NCBI GenBank assembly: GCA_028873845.1
Contig: JAPPNO010000026.1
Location: 1-54,761 of the forward strand
From: Gemmatimonadota bacterium
GTDB lineage: Bacteria > Gemmatimonadota > Gemmatimonadetes > Longimicrobiales > Gaopeijiaceae
Direction: 5' to 3'
Length of the DNA: 54,761 nt
Positions 32,839-42,447 of this stretch are shown piece after piece. The notes under the pieces were generated by a model. It did no database searches and was not told the origin of the DNA. It saw only the letters and a program-made list of their open reading frames with translations. Every line of letters begins with the position of its first letter. The first letter of the stretch is position 1. The position numbers were made by a program, and so were the translations under genes.

Positions 32839-35800
32839 TTATCCGCGGACTGCCAGCAGCCCTGGAGTCAGCAGGAAACGACCGAAAATGTCCAGCTGGA
32901 AGCGGGTCAGCCCCGCGCGCCGGCCCACGAAGGACCGCCTGTCGAGGTAGCGGAGGCTGACCTCCAGCTGATAGTCGCGCAGCGTTGAATCCAGGGACAC
33001 CGACGCATCCCTCTCCAACTGGTCGATGAAGGCCACGCACGGGGTTCCCGGACGCGGTTGGCGGCACTGCACTTCGTCCGAGTAGCTCAGCCTCACCGAG
33101 AGACGCATCCGTGCACCCCGGCGCCTGAAGGCGGACAGCGGCGACCGGAGCGCCGCCTCGACGCGCAGCGCGTGGGAGTTTCTCTCGGTCCTGGTTTCGC
33201 CGGTGGGGTCGAGGCTCTCACCGCGGTCGCGCTGCCCGTCGTAGGTGACCGAGACGCCCCGGGGGAAGACCAGCGTGAGCGAGGCGGGCACCTCCTGGTC
33301 TTCGCCGAACCGGTTCTGCCTGGCGCCCGCCCCGAACTCCAGGGCGCGCTCCACGTGCCTGTACCCGGCGCTGGCCGACAGCCGCTCCAACACGGGCGCA
33401 AGGAATCCCGGAAGCGCCACGTTCGTGACCGACACGCTGACGTCCGGCCACACGGTCGACAGGTACTCGCGGTCGGAACGCGTGTCCAGCGTCTCGAACT
33501 GGTCGCGCTGGTACCCGATGTCGAGCGACCCCGAACCGAGGAACTTCAGTCCGCCACCCACCGTGAAGCGCTCCTGGTCGCCCAGCGTCGAGGCGGAATC
33601 GCGGCCGATGACGAGGAAGTCGTCCCGGCCGCCCCACCCCAGCTCGTAGATCGTTCCGGGGTTCACCGGCTCGCGGTTGAAGCGCGAGGTCAGCCGGTTG
33701 GTGTAGGAAAGGAACAGGGGGTTCAGCACGCTGGACCACCGGCGCACGAAGCTGCCCTCCGGCGCCTCCGCCGCCAGGCGGACCGGATCCAGCGACAGGG
33801 ACGCCTCCAGGTTTCTCTGCCCGTCGACGTTGCGCAGCAGCACCAGAGCCGTGTCGACCGGAGTATGGCGCGTTTCGATCAGGTCGGAATTCCGTTCGGT
33901 GAAATAGATGGTGTTCACCTGGACCCTGGTCCTCGCCCAGTCGCTGAGCCGGGGCTGGTACACCAGGCTCGTCCGCACGTGGCGGTCCACCTCCCAGCCC
34001 AGATCGACGCCTCCCAGTCGCCGCCGCTCGCCGGCCAGCAGGTCGCGGGTGCCCTGGTCGCCGGAAAGCTCCTCCACCGTCAGCAGGTCCCGGCCACTCA
34101 GGAAGTCCGCGCCGGCGGTGAGCGACGGAAAGGGACGCAGGACCACGCTCGCCGACGCCGACACCTTTCGCCGGGGAGCCTCGGTGACCTGAGCCAGGGA
34201 GTCCTCGTCGGTCTCGATGATGTGGTCGAAGCGGACCGTGCTCAGATCCCGGTCCAGCATCTCGCTCTGGAACGAGAACTCGTAGGGCGTCCACCGCAGG
34301 CGCGCCCCCGCGACGCGGTCTTCGAGGAACGAGGGGAGGAGGAGGCGCAGCGCGTCGCCGACCCAGCCCGGGAAGAGGGGAACGTCCCGGTGGGCCGGCG
34401 TGGCCAGGTACCCGACGAAGGCGTCCACTCCGTCGCTGTCGCTCTCGGTGGTGATCGTTCGCAGAGACGAGCGGACCACCCCGGCGCGCGCGTCGAAGCC
34501 GTCCAGCACGGCGTCCCAGAAGCCGCTGCCCTCCGCGGTCCTCCGCCTGAGCGACAGGTCGATCCGGGTCCGGTTGAAACCGGGCTGCCTGGCCTCCTGC
34601 AGCTGGTTGGCGCGTACGTCGCTGCGCCCCAGAAAGATGGGGGACTGGTCCTCCCGTTCGTAGGTCATGGAAAGCGGCGCTTCGATCCCCCACTCCGACG
34701 GCGTGAACCGGCCAAGCTGCAGCGTCGTCTGCAGGTCGAGGGTCCGGTCGTCGTGGTAGCTCGGGGTGGCTCGCAGCTGTCGGAAGTGGCCGCTGCGGCT
34801 CCGGAAGGAGGCCCGGGAGTGCAGAAAGTCGCCACCCCTGACTTCGGCGTCGACGGCCGACACCAGGCCTCTGTCCCGGGTCCCCCGCGAGAGCCGCAGC
34901 TCGTCCACCCACACCTCGCCCGACAGCGGCGCACCGGTCCCGTTCATCACGCCCAGGCTCATCTCGCGCACAGAGGCCAGGTTGGGGGCCCGGCCGCGGT
35001 CCTGCATCACGATGGCGTAGGTCGAGTCGGCCGACCACAGCACCAGCGGGGGGTCCCCCGGCATCCTCGGGTTCACGAAGAACTGAACCTCCGCGTTGCG
35101 CCGGAGCTGCAGCCATTCCTCGAAATCGATCACGACTTCGGGCAGCCATTCCTCCTCGCGCACCGTGCCGGGCGTGTCCACCGGGTCGAGCCGCGTGCGG
35201 AAGAGGTAGAAGTTGCGGTCGTCGGTGCCGATCTTGACGAAGAACCAGGCGGGCACCCCGGCGCCGAAATCCCCCCGGGCCGCGACGGCCCACAGCCGCG
35301 CCTCCCGGTAGGAGAGGAAGTCGCGCGGTTGCTGGGGGAACCGGTTGTAGACCTCGGCCCGGTCCCCGGGCAGGATGTTCTCGAAGGCGACCGAAAGCGA
35401 GCGCTCGTTGAACTCGATGCCCTGCCCGCCGAAGGCCGCGGTCGGGTCGTCGAGCTGCTCGATCACGCCGGGGGGCGAAGTGTAGGCGTCTCCCACGGTG
35501 ACCTTGGAGACCGGGCCCACCTCGACCCGTCCGTGGACCGAGGCGGTGTCCCCGCCCAGTCCGGAGAGCACGCCGCTCTCCGTGCGCTTGACCCACGTCG
35601 ATCCCACGATCGACATGCGGGCCAGCACGAAGGAATCGCGGCGCTTGCCCGCCACGGTGATCCGCAGATGCCGCACGGCGCGCAGCTCGGCGTCGGTGAT
35701 CGCCCCGCCGAGGTCGATTCCCGTCGGGTCGCGAATGGGAACGCGGTAGAGGCGGAACGAGGTCCCCGTCTCGTCGCGGTCGCGGACCATGAACGGCGAG

Positions 35801-38800
35801 GAGCCGTCCAGCCGCACCACGAACCGGCGATACCGTTCCAGGGTGTCGAGGTTGCCGTCCTCGTCCAGGTCCTCGGAGTTCTTGATGCCGTTGCCCCGGG
35901 TGCAGTTGGCGTTCGGATCGCCGAGCCGGTACACCCGGCCCTGCTCGGCCCTGCACCGCTCCGCCCAGACACCCCGTTCGTCCGCGACGGTCCCCCAGAT
36001 CTCGCCGCGCCGCGGATCGGCCTCCTGGTCCAGGATGTCCAGGCCCCACGGCACTCCCGTACCCGGCTTCACGCCGTTCGCACGCCCCAGGGCGTCCACG
36101 AAGAAGGCGTCCTCGCTGACGATCCCAAGATCGAGGACCAGCGTCAGGAAGTCGCCGTCGCGCACGTACAACTCGACGAAATCGCTCTTGGTCAGGTCGC
36201 GCCCGGTCCGGTTCAGCACGGTGGTGATCGACGCCCACTCGTTCGTTCCCTCCACGTCGCCGCCGGCGTGTTCGAAGCGCCCGAGGAGTCCCCACTCGCG
36301 CACGGCGCCGCCCGTGACCCGGATCTGCTGGTCGATGTCGACGGCGGGATTGAAGCCCGGGAAGACCCCCAGGCTGTCTCCGCCCACATCCTCTTCGATC
36401 CAGGTGTGCTGCCACGTCATCGCGGCCCTGTTGTCGACCGACATCTCCGGCGGCAACACCTCCTCCGCACCGTCGGTGAACGCGGGACGGCTCCCCAGGT
36501 GCCACTCGTGGCTCTCCACCAGCAGCGGCAGCGCGTTGACCCCGTCGTAGTCGTCCAGGTACACGGCACCCTGCGTATTGGGGTTCGGCAGGGACACCGC
36601 CGCTTCGCCCGAGAGGTGCACCGACGAGCGCTCTCCGGCCCGCAGGCCGGGAATCGCGTTGAGCGCGCGGGTCAGCAGGTGGGCGTCCAGGTTGAGGTTG
36701 CCGCTGAACCCGCCGAGCCCCACCGCGCTCGACTCCAGACCCAGCCGCGGCCTGCGCACCTGCTGGTCCTCGGTCTGGTACAGGCCGATAAGGTTCAGCT
36801 CGCCGTAGTCCCCCAGGTCGTAGCGGGCGTTCATTCCGAAGACCGACGACGGCACCACCCGAAAGGAGCTCCGCTGTTCCCACGTCACCTCGAGGTTGCG
36901 CCCGGGAGTGGTGGCCAGCAGTCCCTCGAGGTCCCGGAGCCTCAGCTGTCCCACCTCGTAGACGATCGTGTAGTCCACGCCCCGGACCAGGAGCCGGTCG
37001 TCCAGCGTCACCCGTTCGGACCCTTCGCGGATGCCCGCCGCCCCCAGCGAGAAGGACGAGGCCGTACTGTCCCCGGTCACCTCGTACGCCAGGTTCAGAC
37101 GGAAGACACCACCGTATTCCCTCTCGAACGGGTCCGCGGCGCGGTAGATGCGCTCGTTGCGGTTCTCGCCCAGCAACCTCCTCACTTCGGTCGAATCGAT
37201 GTCCACGCTGCGAAGCGGCGGCGGACTCGCAAAGGGCTCGAGCGTCGGGAACACGATGAAGGTCCCGGACACCGGCGGCTGGTCCTCGAAGGAGTCGAGC
37301 GCGGGACGGTAGATGTGCGACTCGTCCAGCCGGTCCCTGGGGGACTCCTCGTCCAGTCCGAAGAGTCGCAGGTAGGTCACGTCGTCGCCGTTGTCGCGGC
37401 GGGCGAAGGTGCGTCCCAGGCTCTCCTCGCCGAGCGACACGGTGAGCTCCACCGAAGCCGGGTCCACGTCGCCGAACAGGGAAACGCGGTAGACCTGGTG
37501 CATCTCCGTCGCCCATGTCGGGCGGCCGGGCCGGTGCTGGGCCGCCGAGGCCCTCAGCAGCTTGAGCCTGGGCCTGCCCCCGCTCCGGTAGATCCGCTCC
37601 GGATTGTAGGTGCCGACGGTGTCTCCCGCCTCGGTCACATAGGTGACGGCAAGCATCGCGTCGGGTTCCAGGGGCGCCTGGAGCGCCACCCAGAGTCCGC
37701 TGGGATGCACCATGTAGTCGCGCCCCGGCCGCAGGTACTGGAACCACGCCGACTCGGCGACGGTGTCCGCGCCCTCCCCCGCGACGGCGTCGGCCTGGAT
37801 CTGCCCCTCCACCTGCTGGAGCGAGACCGAACCGGTCGTGCTGCGGTAGAGCTGGATCGGCTCGGCCCCGGGCGCCAGCGAGGACGGCGCCGCGTTGGGG
37901 GTGAGCGCCAGCGCGTCGATGTGCGGGTAGTCGAAGAAGCCTTCGGGATCGAACAGGAAGAAGAACTGCCCCTCGATGTAGTCGGCGTCGTCGAGGACCA
38001 GCGTGTCCGACCGCGAGAAGGTCCTGCCCGAACCCTCCAGGCGGAAGGTTCGCGAGGTCACCTCGCCGGCCTCCTGGGCCCACACCGACCGCACCTCCAC
38101 CGGACCCGCCTCGAGCGCGGCCTGGAAGCCGAAGCTGCCCTGGGGGACTCCGCCGAGCAGGTAGCGGGAGGGGGGCAGGTCGAAGCGCACGTCGCCGATT
38201 TCAAGTCGCTGGAAGACCTCGCCGGGGCTCCCCTGGTAGCGGATGTTGATCCGGTTGGCGGCCGCGTTTTCGCGAGCCTGGTCGTAGTCGACATCCACGA
38301 CGATGCGGTCCGTAATGGTGCCGTCGGCCCTGGCGCCGAACTGGATGTCGGGCGTGAGCCGCGGAATGCGCGGGATCGCGCAGGTCAGCTGCACCGCGTC
38401 GTCGCAGGGCCTGTATTGCGTCCAGTCCGCGCCGAAGTCGCCGGATCCGGTCACGGCGAAGCCCAGGTCGGCGAATTCGTTGCGGAACCTGACGGGCGTG
38501 TCGGCGAGGCGGCCCGACGGACCCCGTCCCGCCGGCGCCGGGATCCGGCCGTACCCGATGGTGCGCCCGAGCGTTCCCAGACGGAAGAGCGGATCCCGGG
38601 ACCAGTCGCGCGGAGTGGGCGCGATGACGGGATCGGCGTCCGGGCCGATGTCCCCGATGCGGAGCCGCGGTCCGTAGCGGGTGACGGGAATGAGGGCCAG
38701 CCCCAGCCGCACGACGGGGACGGGGGGTGGTGGCGGGGACAGCAACGATCGTCCCGGTTCACGGAGTTGCGGGATGATCCAGAGGACGGTATCGGGCCGG

Positions 38801-38889
38801 GAGACGGTCCTTTCCTGCGCACCTGCCGCACCACCGCCTCCCACCACAAGCAGGATCGCCGCCCCCGGGAGCAACCGTCGAGTCGTCAC
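32839..38889 (-). CDS. sprA: SprA/Sov-like outer-membrane translocon protein
   Basis: The 2016-residue protein has a Sec signal peptide (LLPGAAILLVVGGGGAAGAQ) and then almost uninterrupted beta-strand pattern. Order and motifs match SprA: an N-terminal strand-rich region (IVVDVDYDQARENAAANRINI, GEVFQRLEIGDVRFDLPPSRYLLGG), a repeated EYVVDY-like segment (GVDYTIVYEVGQLRLRDLEG), the PNTQGAVYLDDYDGVNAL block near residue 780, and a long C-terminal part of alternating strands. SprA is the very large barrel through which type 9 secretion substrates cross the outer membrane. The start is GTG 38887-38889. It is divergent from lptF by 150 bases. No other T9SS gene is in the window. The assignment rests on overall pattern, so function should be stated with care. 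Confidence 0.8.
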   Translation of the reverse strand: MTTRRLLPGAAILLVVGGGGAAGAQERTVSRPDTVLWIIPQLREPGRSLLSPPPPPVPVVRLGLALIPVTRYGPRLRIGDIGPDADPVIAPTPRDWSRDPLFRLGTLGRTIGYGRIPAPAGRGPSGRLADTPVRFRNEFADLGFAVTGSGDFGADWTQYRPCDDAVQLTCAIPRIPRLTPDIQFGARADGTITDRIVVDVDYDQARENAAANRINIRYQGSPGEVFQRLEIGDVRFDLPPSRYLLGGVPQGSFGFQAALEAGPVEVRSVWAQEAGEVTSRTFRLEGSGRTFSRSDTLVLDDADYIEGQFFFLFDPEGFFDYPHIDALALTPNAAPSSLAPGAEPIQLYRSTTGSVSLQQVEGQIQADAVAGEGADTVAESAWFQYLRPGRDYMVHPSGLWVALQAPLEPDAMLAVTYVTEAGDTVGTYNPERIYRSGGRPRLKLLRASAAQHRPGRPTWATEMHQVYRVSLFGDVDPASVELTVSLGEESLGRTFARRDNGDDVTYLRLFGLDEESPRDRLDESHIYRPALDSFEDQPPVSGTFIVFPTLEPFASPPPLRSVDIDSTEVRRLLGENRNERIYRAADPFEREYGGVFRLNLAYEVTGDSTASSFSLGAAGIREGSERVTLDDRLLVRGVDYTIVYEVGQLRLRDLEGLLATTPGRNLEVTWEQRSSFRVVPSSVFGMNARYDLGDYGELNLIGLYQTEDQQVRRPRLGLESSAVGLGGFSGNLNLDAHLLTRALNAIPGLRAGERSSVHLSGEAAVSLPNPNTQGAVYLDDYDGVNALPLLVESHEWHLGSRPAFTDGAEEVLPPEMSVDNRAAMTWQHTWIEEDVGGDSLGVFPGFNPAVDIDQQIRVTGGAVREWGLLGRFEHAGGDVEGTNEWASITTVLNRTGRDLTKSDFVELYVRDGDFLTLVLDLGIVSEDAFFVDALGRANGVKPGTGVPWGLDILDQEADPRRGEIWGTVADERGVWAERCRAEQGRVYRLGDPNANCTRGNGIKNSEDLDEDGNLDTLERYRRFVVRLDGSSPFMVRDRDETGTSFRLYRVPIRDPTGIDLGGAITDAELRAVRHLRITVAGKRRDSFVLARMSIVGSTWVKRTESGVLSGLGGDTASVHGRVEVGPVSKVTVGDAYTSPPGVIEQLDDPTAAFGGQGIEFNERSLSVAFENILPGDRAEVYNRFPQQPRDFLSYREARLWAVAARGDFGAGVPAWFFVKIGTDDRNFYLFRTRLDPVDTPGTVREEEWLPEVVIDFEEWLQLRRNAEVQFFVNPRMPGDPPLVLWSADSTYAIVMQDRGRAPNLASVREMSLGVMNGTGAPLSGEVWVDELRLSRGTRDRGLVSAVDAEVRGGDFLHSRASFRSRSGHFRQLRATPSYHDDRTLDLQTTLQLGRFTPSEWGIEAPLSMTYEREDQSPIFLGRSDVRANQLQEARQPGFNRTRIDLSLRRRTAEGSGFWDAVLDGFDARAGVVRSSLRTITTESDSDGVDAFVGYLATPAHRDVPLFPGWVGDALRLLLPSFLEDRVAGARLRWTPYEFSFQSEMLDRDLSTVRFDHIIETDEDSLAQVTEAPRRKVSASASVVLRPFPSLTAGADFLSGRDLLTVEELSGDQGTRDLLAGERRRLGGVDLGWEVDRHVRTSLVYQPRLSDWARTRVQVNTIYFTERNSDLIETRHTPVDTALVLLRNVDGQRNLEASLSLDPVRLAAEAPEGSFVRRWSSVLNPLFLSYTNRLTSRFNREPVNPGTIYELGWGGRDDFLVIGRDSASTLGDQERFTVGGGLKFLGSGSLDIGYQRDQFETLDTRSDREYLSTVWPDVSVSVTNVALPGFLAPVLERLSASAGYRHVERALEFGAGARQNRFGEDQEVPASLTLVFPRGVSVTYDGQRDRGESLDPTGETRTERNSHALRVEAALRSPLSAFRRRGARMRLSVRLSYSDEVQCRQPRPGTPCVAFIDQLERDASVSLDSTLRDYQLEVSLRYLDRRSFVGRRAGLTRFQLDIFGRFLLTPGLLAVRG

Positions 38890-39039
38890 GCGGCATCCCT
38901 TCTACAGACGAGCTCGCGGGCGCCGTCCCCGCAGTCCGCGGACAAGGCCCGGCGAGGACCGCGCGGCTCGAATGCCGCGGGGCATCCCTCCACCGGCCGC
39001 CCGAACCGGAAAACGCGCCGGGATCGGTTAGATTCCTCC

Positions 39040-40470
39040 ATGACCATCCTTACCCGATACCTGATCCGCTCGCACGTGGGTCCCTTCCTGTTCACCTTCA
39101 GTCTGCTGACCGGACTGATGTTCGTGAACGCCATCGCACAGAGGCTCGACGACCTGGCGGGCAAGGGCCTCCCCAGGGATGTCATTCTCGAGGCGCTCCT
39201 GCTGTCGCTGCCCCACACGGTTGCTCTTACGCTTCCCATGGCCGTCCTCCCGGCGGTCCTCTACACCTTCAGCGAGCTGGCGGCCAATAGCGAGATCATC
39301 GCCATGTCCGGAGGCGGAGTGCGCCCCCGCCGGCTCTTCCTGCCCGCCCTGTTCCTCGGCGTTTTCCTGGCGGCTGTCACCTTTTTCTTCAACGACCGTA
39401 TCCTCCCGGAAGCCAACCACCGGCTCAAGAATCTCCAGGTTTCGATTCAACGGAAGAGTCCCACCTTTCAACTCCGCGAGCGTGTGGTCAACGTCATCCA
39501 GGGGGAGAACGGGCTGGGTCCCTACTACCTGCGGGCCGAATCCATAGATCCCGTGTCCAGTGAACTCACCGATGTTCACATCTATGATATGAGCCGGCAG
39601 GGCGTGCGGCGCACGACCTACGCCGCCCGGGGCGAAATGAAACTGAACGCCTCCTTCACCGACCTCCAGCTCCGTCTTTTCGACGGGGAGGCCTACGAAG
39701 TGGGGTCGGTCGACCAGCGTTCCTTCCAGCGGACCGCCTTCGAACAGAAACTGTATGTGCTGCGCGGGGTGGGCGACATCTTCGAGGACACCGAGGCCAA
39801 TTACCGGGGCGACCGGGAGATGTCGGTTGCCGCGCTGCACGACTCCGCGAATGCCAAGATCATGCAGTTGGACAGCTTGCGCGAGGCATCGAGGGTGACC
39901 GCGGTTCGGGCGGTCGAGCGGGCCTTGGGACGCTCGGAGGAGGGGGACGGGGGGGCCATGATGTTCTCCAAGGCCCCGCCGGGGTTCGAGGGCGGTCAGA
40001 TGCCCCAGGACGAGATGCTCCGGATGCTGGCCATCGACGCCAAGACGCAGGGGACCCGGTTCCGGGCACTCAGGAAGCGGGCCAGCCAGTACTGGGTGGA
40101 AATCCACAAGAAGCTGGTGATCGCCAGCGCCTGCATGATCTTCGTGCTGATCGGAATGCCCGTGGGCGTGCGCTTCTCGCGCGGGGGCATCAGCATGGTG
40201 ATCGTGGTGTCGGCCATGGTGATCGGCATCTACCAGTACGGGATGTCCACGGGCGAGGACTGGGCCGACCGGGATCTGGCCACGCCCTTCTGGTCGATGT
40301 GGGCGGCGAGCCTGTTGTTTCTGGCCATGGGCGCGCTGCTCGCGTCCCGGCTGGGCCGCTGGACCGCCTCGTCCCGCGAGAGCGGCTGGCAGGAGCTGTG
40401 GCTGGAGGCGCGCGCGGGGTTGCTGAGCATCCTCCCGTGGCAGCGGCTTGCCCGCAGGAGGTCCCGGTGA
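39040..40470 (+). CDS. lptF: Lipopolysaccharide export permease LptF
   Basis: LptF is one half of the LptB2FG transporter that extracts lipopolysaccharide from the inner membrane. The 476-residue protein has the N-terminal MTILTRYLIRSHVGPFLFTF segment, three early helices, ELAANSEIIAMSGGGVRP (the coupling helix), a periplasmic beta-jellyroll and C-terminal helices (VIASACMIFVLIGMPVGVRFSRGG). It is about 100 residues longer than E. coli LptF, the extra lying after the jellyroll (about 260-345). The frame is open far upstream antisense to sprA, but the ATG at 39040 fits the family. The stop overlaps the lptG start (GTGA). Confidence 0.93.
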   Translation: MTILTRYLIRSHVGPFLFTFSLLTGLMFVNAIAQRLDDLAGKGLPRDVILEALLLSLPHTVALTLPMAVLPAVLYTFSELAANSEIIAMSGGGVRPRRLFLPALFLGVFLAAVTFFFNDRILPEANHRLKNLQVSIQRKSPTFQLRERVVNVIQGENGLGPYYLRAESIDPVSSELTDVHIYDMSRQGVRRTTYAARGEMKLNASFTDLQLRLFDGEAYEVGSVDQRSFQRTAFEQKLYVLRGVGDIFEDTEANYRGDREMSVAALHDSANAKIMQLDSLREASRVTAVRAVERALGRSEEGDGGAMMFSKAPPGFEGGQMPQDEMLRMLAIDAKTQGTRFRALRKRASQYWVEIHKKLVIASACMIFVLIGMPVGVRFSRGGISMVIVVSAMVIGIYQYGMSTGEDWADRDLATPFWSMWAASLLFLAMGALLASRLGRWTASSRESGWQELWLEARAGLLSILPWQRLARRRSR

Positions 40471-41534
40471 TCCGCACACTGGATCGAATGGTGGCGGCGA
40501 CCTTCGTCCGTCTTTTTGCGATCTTCGTCCTAAGCGTCCCCGTCATGTTCATCCTGTCGGACCTTTCCGCCAGGCGGGGCATCTACATCGACCGGGAACT
40601 GACCAACCTGGAGATCGGCCTGGGGTACCTGTTCCAGTACCCCATGTTCGTCCTCTGGTCGTTTCCGGTCGCCGCGCTCGTGGCCACCGTCTTCACCATT
40701 CACTCTATGACGGTCCACCGCGAAATCCAGGCCGCGAAGGCGGGGGGGATCTCCTTTCACCGGCTCTTCGTCCCGCTCTGGCCCATCGGCGCGGTCCTGA
40801 CGGTGGCCGCGTTCATGCTGGGCACCATCGTTCCCACCACCAACCGCAGGTCGGCCGAGGTTTTCAAGGAACGGGAGGTCCGGCGCGACTGGCGCAACAA
40901 CTTCGTCTTCCAGACCGAGACGGGAGAGACCCTCAGCATCCAGCAGTTGACCGTCTCCAACAACCGGGTCGACTGGATTCTGCTGGAGAGCGAGGACGAG
41001 GACGGCACGCGCCGGCACGTCTGGGCCCGGCGGGCGGACTACACCGAGGAGGACGGCTGGACCCTGGACAACGGGTACATGCGCGTCGTACGGCCCGACG
41101 GCGGCGAGTATTCCTTCAGGTTCGAGCGCTACCGCCATCCGGAGCTGGCTCCGACCCCCGCGGAACTCCTGCAGGATCCTCGCGAAGAGGAGGAGATGGG
41201 CTACGAGGAGCTGGGAAGGCAGGCCGAGGCCGTGTACCGCTCCGGCGGCGATCCGAACGAACTCCTGGTCGCGCGCGAACAGAAGCTTGCGATTCCCGCC
41301 GCCACCCTTGTGATCATGCTCTTCGGGGCACCCCTCGCCACCACGGCCAAGAAGGGGGGCGCGGCCTTCGGTGTGGGGGTGGCCCTGGGGTCCACCCTGA
41401 TCTATATTCTGCTGCTCAGGCTGTTCGGCGCCATAGGAATCGCCGGCGGGCTGCCCCCCGTCTGGGCCGCGTGGACCCCGAACATCCTCTTCTTCGTGGC
41501 CGGGGCGGTTCTGCTGATTCGGGCACGGACCTGA
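40467..41534 (+). CDS. lptG: Lipopolysaccharide export permease LptG
   Basis: The 355-residue partner of LptF has MIRTLDRMVAATFVRLFAIF, helices with YPMFVLWSFPVAALVATVFT, the coupling segment REIQAAKAGGISFHRL, a periplasmic beta-domain and the C-terminal QKLAIPAATLVIMLFGAPLATTAKKGG. The GTG at 40467-40469 was chosen because a strong AGGAGGT lies six bases upstream and it overlaps the lptF stop. Convergent with the DapF-like gene, 10 bases apart. Confidence 0.92.
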   Translation: MIRTLDRMVAATFVRLFAIFVLSVPVMFILSDLSARRGIYIDRELTNLEIGLGYLFQYPMFVLWSFPVAALVATVFTIHSMTVHREIQAAKAGGISFHRLFVPLWPIGAVLTVAAFMLGTIVPTTNRRSAEVFKEREVRRDWRNNFVFQTETGETLSIQQLTVSNNRVDWILLESEDEDGTRRHVWARRADYTEEDGWTLDNGYMRVVRPDGGEYSFRFERYRHPELAPTPAELLQDPREEEEMGYEELGRQAEAVYRSGGDPNELLVAREQKLAIPAATLVIMLFGAPLATTAKKGGAAFGVGVALGSTLIYILLLRLFGAIGIAGGLPPVWAAWTPNILFFVAGAVLLIRART

Positions 41535-41544
41535 GCGGCCGCGG

Positions 41545-42447
41545 TCACGGAACGCCTTCCGCCAGACCCGGCGCCAGCTCCCCCCCGCACACCTCCTCCA
41601 CCGGCCCGCGCAGACGGACCGCCCAGTCGGCGGCCACCTCCACCTCCATGGCGCCGCCCTCCATGACCACCGTCGCGGCGCCGGGCTCCATGTATCCGCG
41701 CCTGACCGCCGCCGCCACAGCCGCGCACGCCGACGTCCCGGATGCGGTCGTCGGCCCCACCCCCCGCTCCCAGATCCGGATGGCCACCTCGCGCCCGGCC
41801 GGGATTTCGGCGAACTGCACGTTCGCGCCGCGCGGGAAGGCCTCGTGCGTGCCGAGCAGAGGGCCGTAGCGAGCGACCTGGCCCGGCGTCCACGCGTCCC
41901 GGAAGGCCACCGCGTGCGGATTGCCCACCGACACGGGCACCACTTCGACCCGGGAAACGGCTCCACCCTGGAGCGGCGGCACCTCCAGCACCACCCGTCC
42001 CCCCTCCCCCGCCAGCCCCGCCCTCACGAACGGCGGCCCGGCCGGGAACTCCACCTTCCCCATGTCGGCCCGCACGTCCCAGACGCCCCGCGGGTCCGGT
42101 CCCGCCACCCGCAGCCCCACCCGGCCACCGCCGGCCACCACCGAAAACGGCTCGTCCGCCGCGCGCCCCGACCGCCTCAGGTACACACCGGCAATGCGGA
42201 GCCCGTTGCCGCTGCGCTCGAACTCGCCCCCGTCGGGGTTGAACATCCGCAGGCGCGGCTCCGCCTCCCGCGGCCCGGCTTCCACCACGACGATTCCGTC
42301 CGCCCCCGGCCCCCGGTGGCGGTCACAGATCCGCTGCGCCAGCGCCGCCGTCAACACCGGGCCGCCGCCCTCCTCGAAGACCAGGTAGTCGTTGCCGTGA
42401 CCGTGGGCCTTGAAGAAGGCCGGACCGATCCGCGGGGATTCACGCAC
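41545..42447 (-). CDS. DapF-like epimerase homologue with both catalytic Cys replaced by Ser
   Basis: The 300-residue protein has the two-domain DapF fold: FFKAHGHGNDYLVFE, RHRGPGADGIVVV, MFNPDGGEFERSGNGLRIAG, VSVGNPHAV and IWERGVGPTTASGTSACAA. In diaminopimelate epimerase two cysteines (Cys73 and Cys217 in Haemophilus) swap protons on the substrate. Here both are Ser (Ser79 and Ser236, codons AGC and TCC), and the Glu of the GET turn is Pro (232). Substrate-binding Asn, Glu227 and Arg228 are kept. It may therefore act differently (slow epimerase, elimination, other amino acid) or be a Ser-using subfamily. No lysine-pathway genes are nearby. The start is GTG 42445-42447. Confidence 0.8.
   Translation of the reverse strand: MRESPRIGPAFFKAHGHGNDYLVFEEGGGPVLTAALAQRICDRHRGPGADGIVVVEAGPREAEPRLRMFNPDGGEFERSGNGLRIAGVYLRRSGRAADEPFSVVAGGGRVGLRVAGPDPRGVWDVRADMGKVEFPAGPPFVRAGLAGEGGRVVLEVPPLQGGAVSRVEVVPVSVGNPHAVAFRDAWTPGQVARYGPLLGTHEAFPRGANVQFAEIPAGREVAIRIWERGVGPTTASGTSACAAVAAAVRRGYMEPGAATVVMEGGAMEVEVAADWAVRLRGPVEEVCGGELAPGLAEGVP

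Follow-up and report, generated by a model that had tools for sequence, protein, structure and literature searches.

The 54,761-nucleotide stretch of DNA analysed here (the window), a contig of a Gemmatimonadota bacterium, encodes a homologue of diaminopimelate (DAP) epimerase, DapF, in which serine replaces both catalytic cysteines. The gene is an ordinary member of a widespread Ser/Ser branch of the DapF family, for which no description, either as a Ser-type DapF or as a Ser/Ser pair, was found in the open-access literature searched. Its product is probably the organism's DAP epimerase, converting LL-DAP to meso-DAP for lysine and peptidoglycan synthesis, and would represent an old Ser/Ser subfamily that is not of the thiol/thiolate type.

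The reading frame is preceded at a short distance by GGAGGA (Table 1). Against TIGR00652, the DapF profile, the protein scores 186.3 bits (curated cut-off 114.65), with residues 10–291 aligning over the full length of the profile, positions 2–268 of 270, and both halves of PF01678 likewise exceed their cut-off. Solved DapF chains can be aligned with it from end to end. An AlphaFold2 model (mean pLDDT 91.7, pTM 0.90) adopts the two-domain fold of DapF; most solved DapF chains match it with Z-scores of 30–34 over about 270 residues, the top match being the O-ureidoserine racemase 7vdy (Z 34.1). By its profile score, its two-domain fold and its complete set of substrate-binding residues, the protein is a member of the DapF sequence family. 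Next to the gene, positions 32839–41534 hold a 2016-residue surface-protein-like reading frame on the minus strand and two LptF/LptG-like permeases on the plus strand, all named by reading. Among the neighbours in the window, named in the same way, no DAP-pathway gene adjoins dapF, which counts against its being a DAP epimerase.

Alignment to 2otn, 9mro and 3ejx places Ser79 and Ser236 on both catalytic cysteines, so that the protein falls outside the thiol/thiolate class of DAP epimerases, which is defined by a catalytic Cys pair. The same alignment bears out the original prediction, which had read serine at both proton-exchange positions and had found the substrate-binding Asn, Glu227 and Arg228 kept. 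The residues retained comprise Asn19, Asn70, Gly80-Asn81, His178, Asn209, Glu227 and Arg228, and the corresponding features, namely the Asn of GND, the Asn of NxDG, the GN after the first catalytic residue, the His of NPH, the Asn of NVx and the Glu-Arg pair, are conserved, with few or no exceptions, in the Ser/Ser sequences of our alignment. The protein's other cysteines, at 41, 241 and 287, occupy neither catalytic position. Around the serines the branch has a signature of its own, consisting of Lys/Arg78, Ile85, Ser239 and a further common residue, Gln211. The glycine equivalent to Ser239 in Anabaena DapF has its amide within hydrogen-bonding distance of the catalytic sulfur, and there are no basic residues within 4 Å of either sulfur in that enzyme (PMC12039745).

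Table 1. Positions of dapF and its active-site residues in the window, and of two plasmid-borne clusters with a DapF-like gene. Row counts refer to the 92-row alignment.
Feature	Sequence	Position	Strand	Remarks
dapF, Ser/Ser type	window	41545..42447	minus	300 aa, GTG start, TGA stop
Ser79 (AGC)	window	42211..42213	minus	replaces first catalytic Cys; directly before helix 80–92 (alignment, model)
Ser236 (TCC)	window	41740..41742	minus	replaces second catalytic Cys; directly before helix 237–249 (alignment, model)
Arg78	window	42214..42216	minus	Lys/Arg in 63/64 Ser/Ser rows, 0/28 Cys/Cys rows
Ser239 (TCG)	window	41731..41733	minus	Ser in 61/64 Ser/Ser rows; Gly in 28/28 Cys/Cys rows
Glu227-Arg228	window	41764..41769	minus	substrate-binding pair, retained
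Ile85	window	42193..42195	minus	Ile/Val/Met in Ser/Ser rows; second Cys of CGNxxRC in 28/28 Cys/Cys rows
DapF-like cluster	Streptomyces sp. NBC_01216 plasmid (L330)	7314–13012		
DapF-like cluster	Agrobacterium vitis plasmid (L331)	7180–13116		

The Ser/Ser form extends far beyond the order of the source organism. We scanned 84,980 species genomes with a Ser/Ser query and took the best 80 matches; of these loci 79 were readable and all 79 were Ser/Ser, a choice that favours Ser/Ser and gives no measure of its frequency relative to Cys/Cys. They lie in Bacteroidota, Aquificota, Nitrospirota, Methylomirabilota/Rokubacteria, Dadabacteria, Armatimonadota, Chloroflexota, Verrucomicrobiota, Planctomycetota, Spirochaetota and FCPU426, and in Pseudomonas and Neobacillus, so that the Ser/Ser DapF spans more than 10 bacterial phyla and a family confined to one order can be rejected. 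All the homologues sorted, with some genomes sampled twice, came to 190 Ser/Ser and 45 Cys/Cys, with no mixed Ser/Cys pair among them. In a tree of 92 sequences (64 Ser/Ser and 28 Cys/Cys) built with both catalytic motifs removed, the Ser/Ser sequences all fall on one side of a single branch with support of 100/99, forming the clade that the original prediction had proposed to look for. One change of state between Cys/Cys and Ser/Ser is enough in all bootstrap trees, and repeated Cys-to-Ser changes are rejected for this set. The codons come from both serine families at each site (AGY 107 and TCG 1 for Ser79, TCN 106 and AGC 3 for Ser236), as expected where selection keeps serine itself.

Within Gemmatimonadota the two forms divide by lineage. 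Every homologue read in the source organism's order is Ser/Ser (about 110 genomes, some 90 from its own family and 19 from two others), and in that family DapF is present in 118 of 121 genomes, usually as a single copy. Elsewhere in the phylum, in other families of the class and in another class, all 35 DapF sequences read are Cys/Cys; four loci of the same class (L116, L119, L150 and L151), which gave no alignment with the query, were left out of the residue reading. The phylum thus holds three types: Ser/Ser (families f1–f3), a divergent Cys/Cys type with mostly 27–32% identity to the window protein (f4–f10), and a Cys/Cys type nearer to typical DapF (f11). Their coexistence suggests gene replacement. 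Flavobacterium panacis, which has a Ser/Ser DapF and no other, is a natural replacement of one DapF type by the other: all 28 DapF sequences read from its relatives in Flavobacteriaceae are Cys/Cys, which also rejects the idea that this family is generally Ser/Ser.

What the protein does can be judged from the genomes that carry it. Meso-DAP is required by LysA and by the DAP-type MurE. The source genome (4.05 Mb in 137 contigs, 96.5% complete) has lysA, on contig C45, and its murE, like that of all relatives read, encodes the DNPR motif of DAP-adding ligases, so that Lys-type peptidoglycan is rejected. No meso-DAP dehydrogenase gene, ddh, was found in this genome, in 14 genomes of the order or in 29 genomes of other phyla, and a ddh bypass is likewise rejected. 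A second dapF, with the usual Cys-Cys pair, had been suggested as a check; the genome has none, and the Ser/Ser gene is its sole copy. With lysA and a DAP-type murE present, and with neither ddh nor another DapF, the genome needs a conversion of LL-DAP to meso-DAP. Counting against a DAP-epimerase role, no dapL above the TIGR03542 cut-off was found in the order.

Of the 29 genomes searched in other phyla, 24 have no DapF besides the Ser/Ser one; lysA scores above its cut-off in 24 of the 29, with some match in 28. In Bacteroidota the gene adjoins dapL or lysA in about 17 loci, as in Maribellus luteus (dapL, 641 bits against TIGR03542) and Tangfeifania (lysA, 298 bits), and at two Spirochaetota loci lysA lies 2.6–3.5 kb away. 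Because the product of DapL is LL-DAP and LysA requires meso-DAP, the two must be linked by an epimerase, for which the Ser/Ser DapF is the only candidate found. Together, lysA, the DAP-type murE, the lack of ddh and the dapL and lysA linkage argue for DAP epimerisation, and we infer that the Ser/Ser DapF acts on LL-DAP.

The original prediction had left open a different isomerase, an eliminase or a Ser-type subfamily. Kinship supports the subfamily, as one branch; a changed function finds no support in the sole DapF, lysA, the DNPR-bearing murE, the lack of ddh or the dapL and lysA neighbours in Bacteroidota. It had also named a sole dapF, meso-DAP peptidoglycan and an active epimerase as what would speak against a changed function, and about half of this is found, namely a sole dapF and genes that predict DAP peptidoglycan. 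A DAP epimerase of Ser/Ser type, departing from the thiol/thiolate rule, is therefore more likely than a different isomerase.

The strongest alternative, which we nevertheless regard as unlikely, is that the Ser/Ser protein differs in substrate or reaction, being an epimerase, isomerase or eliminase that acts on some other amino acid, and that meso-DAP comes from an unrelated, unrecognised epimerase. A precedent for such an enzyme is DapF2, a non-orthologous protein proposed to carry out the same reaction in Staphylococcus, Gemella and Peptostreptococcus; unlike the window protein, it is PLP-dependent and belongs to the unrelated alanine-racemase family (PMC9026213). In the proline racemase family, Ser/Thr pairs accompany dehydration (PMC4364671). 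Two distant Ser/Ser relatives, from two phyla, lie in a conserved cluster outside lysine synthesis, in the order iron-containing redox enzyme, 2OG-Fe dioxygenase, Ser/Ser DapF-like protein, molybdopterin oxidoreductase and aldo/keto reductase, and an EamA transporter is encoded nearby (Table 1). This cluster in Streptomyces and Agrobacterium probably serves a small-molecule pathway, in which the DapF-like protein would act on a different substrate. Both DapF types also occur together in some genomes: a second DapF was found beside the Ser/Ser copy in three Pseudomonas genomes (L231, L233 and L250), Neobacillus cucumis (L235) and Paludibacter sp. (L249), and is Cys/Cys in the four fetched. The Ser/Ser genes there are probably transfers and, given the second DapF, may do something else. 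In two Pseudomonas nitroreducens genomes the match to lysA beside the Cys/Cys dapF covers no more than a short C-terminal piece (G427 C6:85863-86018 and G428 C128:13989-14153), with a full lysA elsewhere. Against another substrate in the branch at large, the DAP-contacting residues are all retained and ddh is absent, and a search with a single alr profile gave one alanine-racemase match at E ≤ 0.001 in the source genome and one or two in most genomes of the order. Given the adjacency to dapL and lysA and the many genomes of other phyla with no other DapF, the same replacement would have had to occur many times.

It is very improbable that the protein is a catalytically weak or dead DapF, retained for structure or regulation while the cell takes up meso-DAP or gains it in some other way. 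Relatives with Cys-to-Ser mutations are indeed almost inactive (PMC11602996), but neither the serines nor the pocket vary across more than 10 phyla, with switches of codon family, and a dead protein would not retain serine specifically; LysA and the DAP-type MurE, moreover, still need their meso-DAP. Sequence errors, which the original prediction had allowed for, can be dismissed together with misassembly and contamination by a foreign contig, as independent assemblies rule out an error behind Ser79 and Ser236: the same serines occur in the roughly 110 genomes of the order, including the single-contig assemblies G032, G033, G041 and G043, as well as in some 80 named contigs from public records.

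A DAP epimerase with two serines poses a chemical difficulty, since the hydroxyl of serine is a far weaker acid than the thiol of cysteine. In known members of the DapF type, a thiol/thiolate pair acts on opposite faces of the α-carbon (PMC12039745). Replacing either cysteine by serine abolished or greatly reduced activity in HisR (C67S and C209S; PMC11602996) and in PddB (C101S and C233S; PMC8225329), which, like the weak acidity of serine, counts against a Ser/Ser epimerase. As these mutants are nearly or wholly inactive, the branch should use either acidified serines or another base in the pocket. From a DAP-pathway epimerase we further infer a serine acid/base pair. That the Ser/Ser DapF epimerises DAP by such a pair, helped by Lys/Arg78 and Ser239, with no cysteine at either position, and that it does so as the sole DAP epimerase in more than 10 phyla, seems to us an even proposition. 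The hydroxyls of Ser79 and Ser236 would sit at the N-termini of two helices, on opposite faces of the α-carbon, and would be made more acidic by this position together with Lys/Arg78 and Ser239. Lys/Arg78 may lower the pKa of Ser79 through its charge or by direct contact, and Ser239 may support Ser236 or relay to it. A two-base 1,1-proton transfer would then take place in the same closed pocket, the least certain part of this explanation. Alternatively, the true base could be His178, Glu227 or a fixed water, with the serines orienting it.

The closest known system is the Cys/Cys DapF (EC 5.1.1.7; H. influenzae 1gqz, Anabaena 9mro, E. coli 4ijz), with which the Ser/Ser form shares homology over the full length, the two-domain fold, pathway genes, the substrate-binding Asn, His, Glu and Arg, and acid/base residues at helix N-termini. 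It differs in having serine for both catalytic cysteines, Lys/Arg before the first, serine for glycine at +3 of the second, and Ile for the second Cys of CGNxxRC. A natural serine at an acid/base position is known from the proline racemase superfamily, which has the same fold class and includes hydroxyproline epimerases and trans-3-hydroxyproline dehydratases (PMC4364671, PMC4113996). There, however, serine occupies at most one of the two positions, opposite Cys or Thr (Ser-Cys and Ser-Thr pairs), the substrates are proline derivatives and identity to the window protein is about 13%. The DapF-like racemases, comprising the O-ureidoserine racemase 7vdy, the histidine racemases CntK and HisR, and PddB, have the DapF fold but other substrates and gene neighbours; for CntK, HisR and PddB a cysteine (thiol/thiolate) mechanism is described.

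The textbook example of a weak thiolate base taking a very weakly acidic α-proton is provided by the cofactor-independent racemases, and DapF is their model enzyme as well as a drug target, pursued with inhibitors that react with thiols. Whether a thiol is needed can be tested directly on a Ser/Ser branch that is natural, old and widespread and supplies many genomes with their only DapF. Such a branch puts in question annotation rules that demand a Cys pair, and its enzymes would be expected to resist thiol-directed inhibitors as well as oxidation of the catalytic pair. Either serines can carry out a reaction for which cysteines were held to be essential, or the step is run in these bacteria by an unrecognised route.
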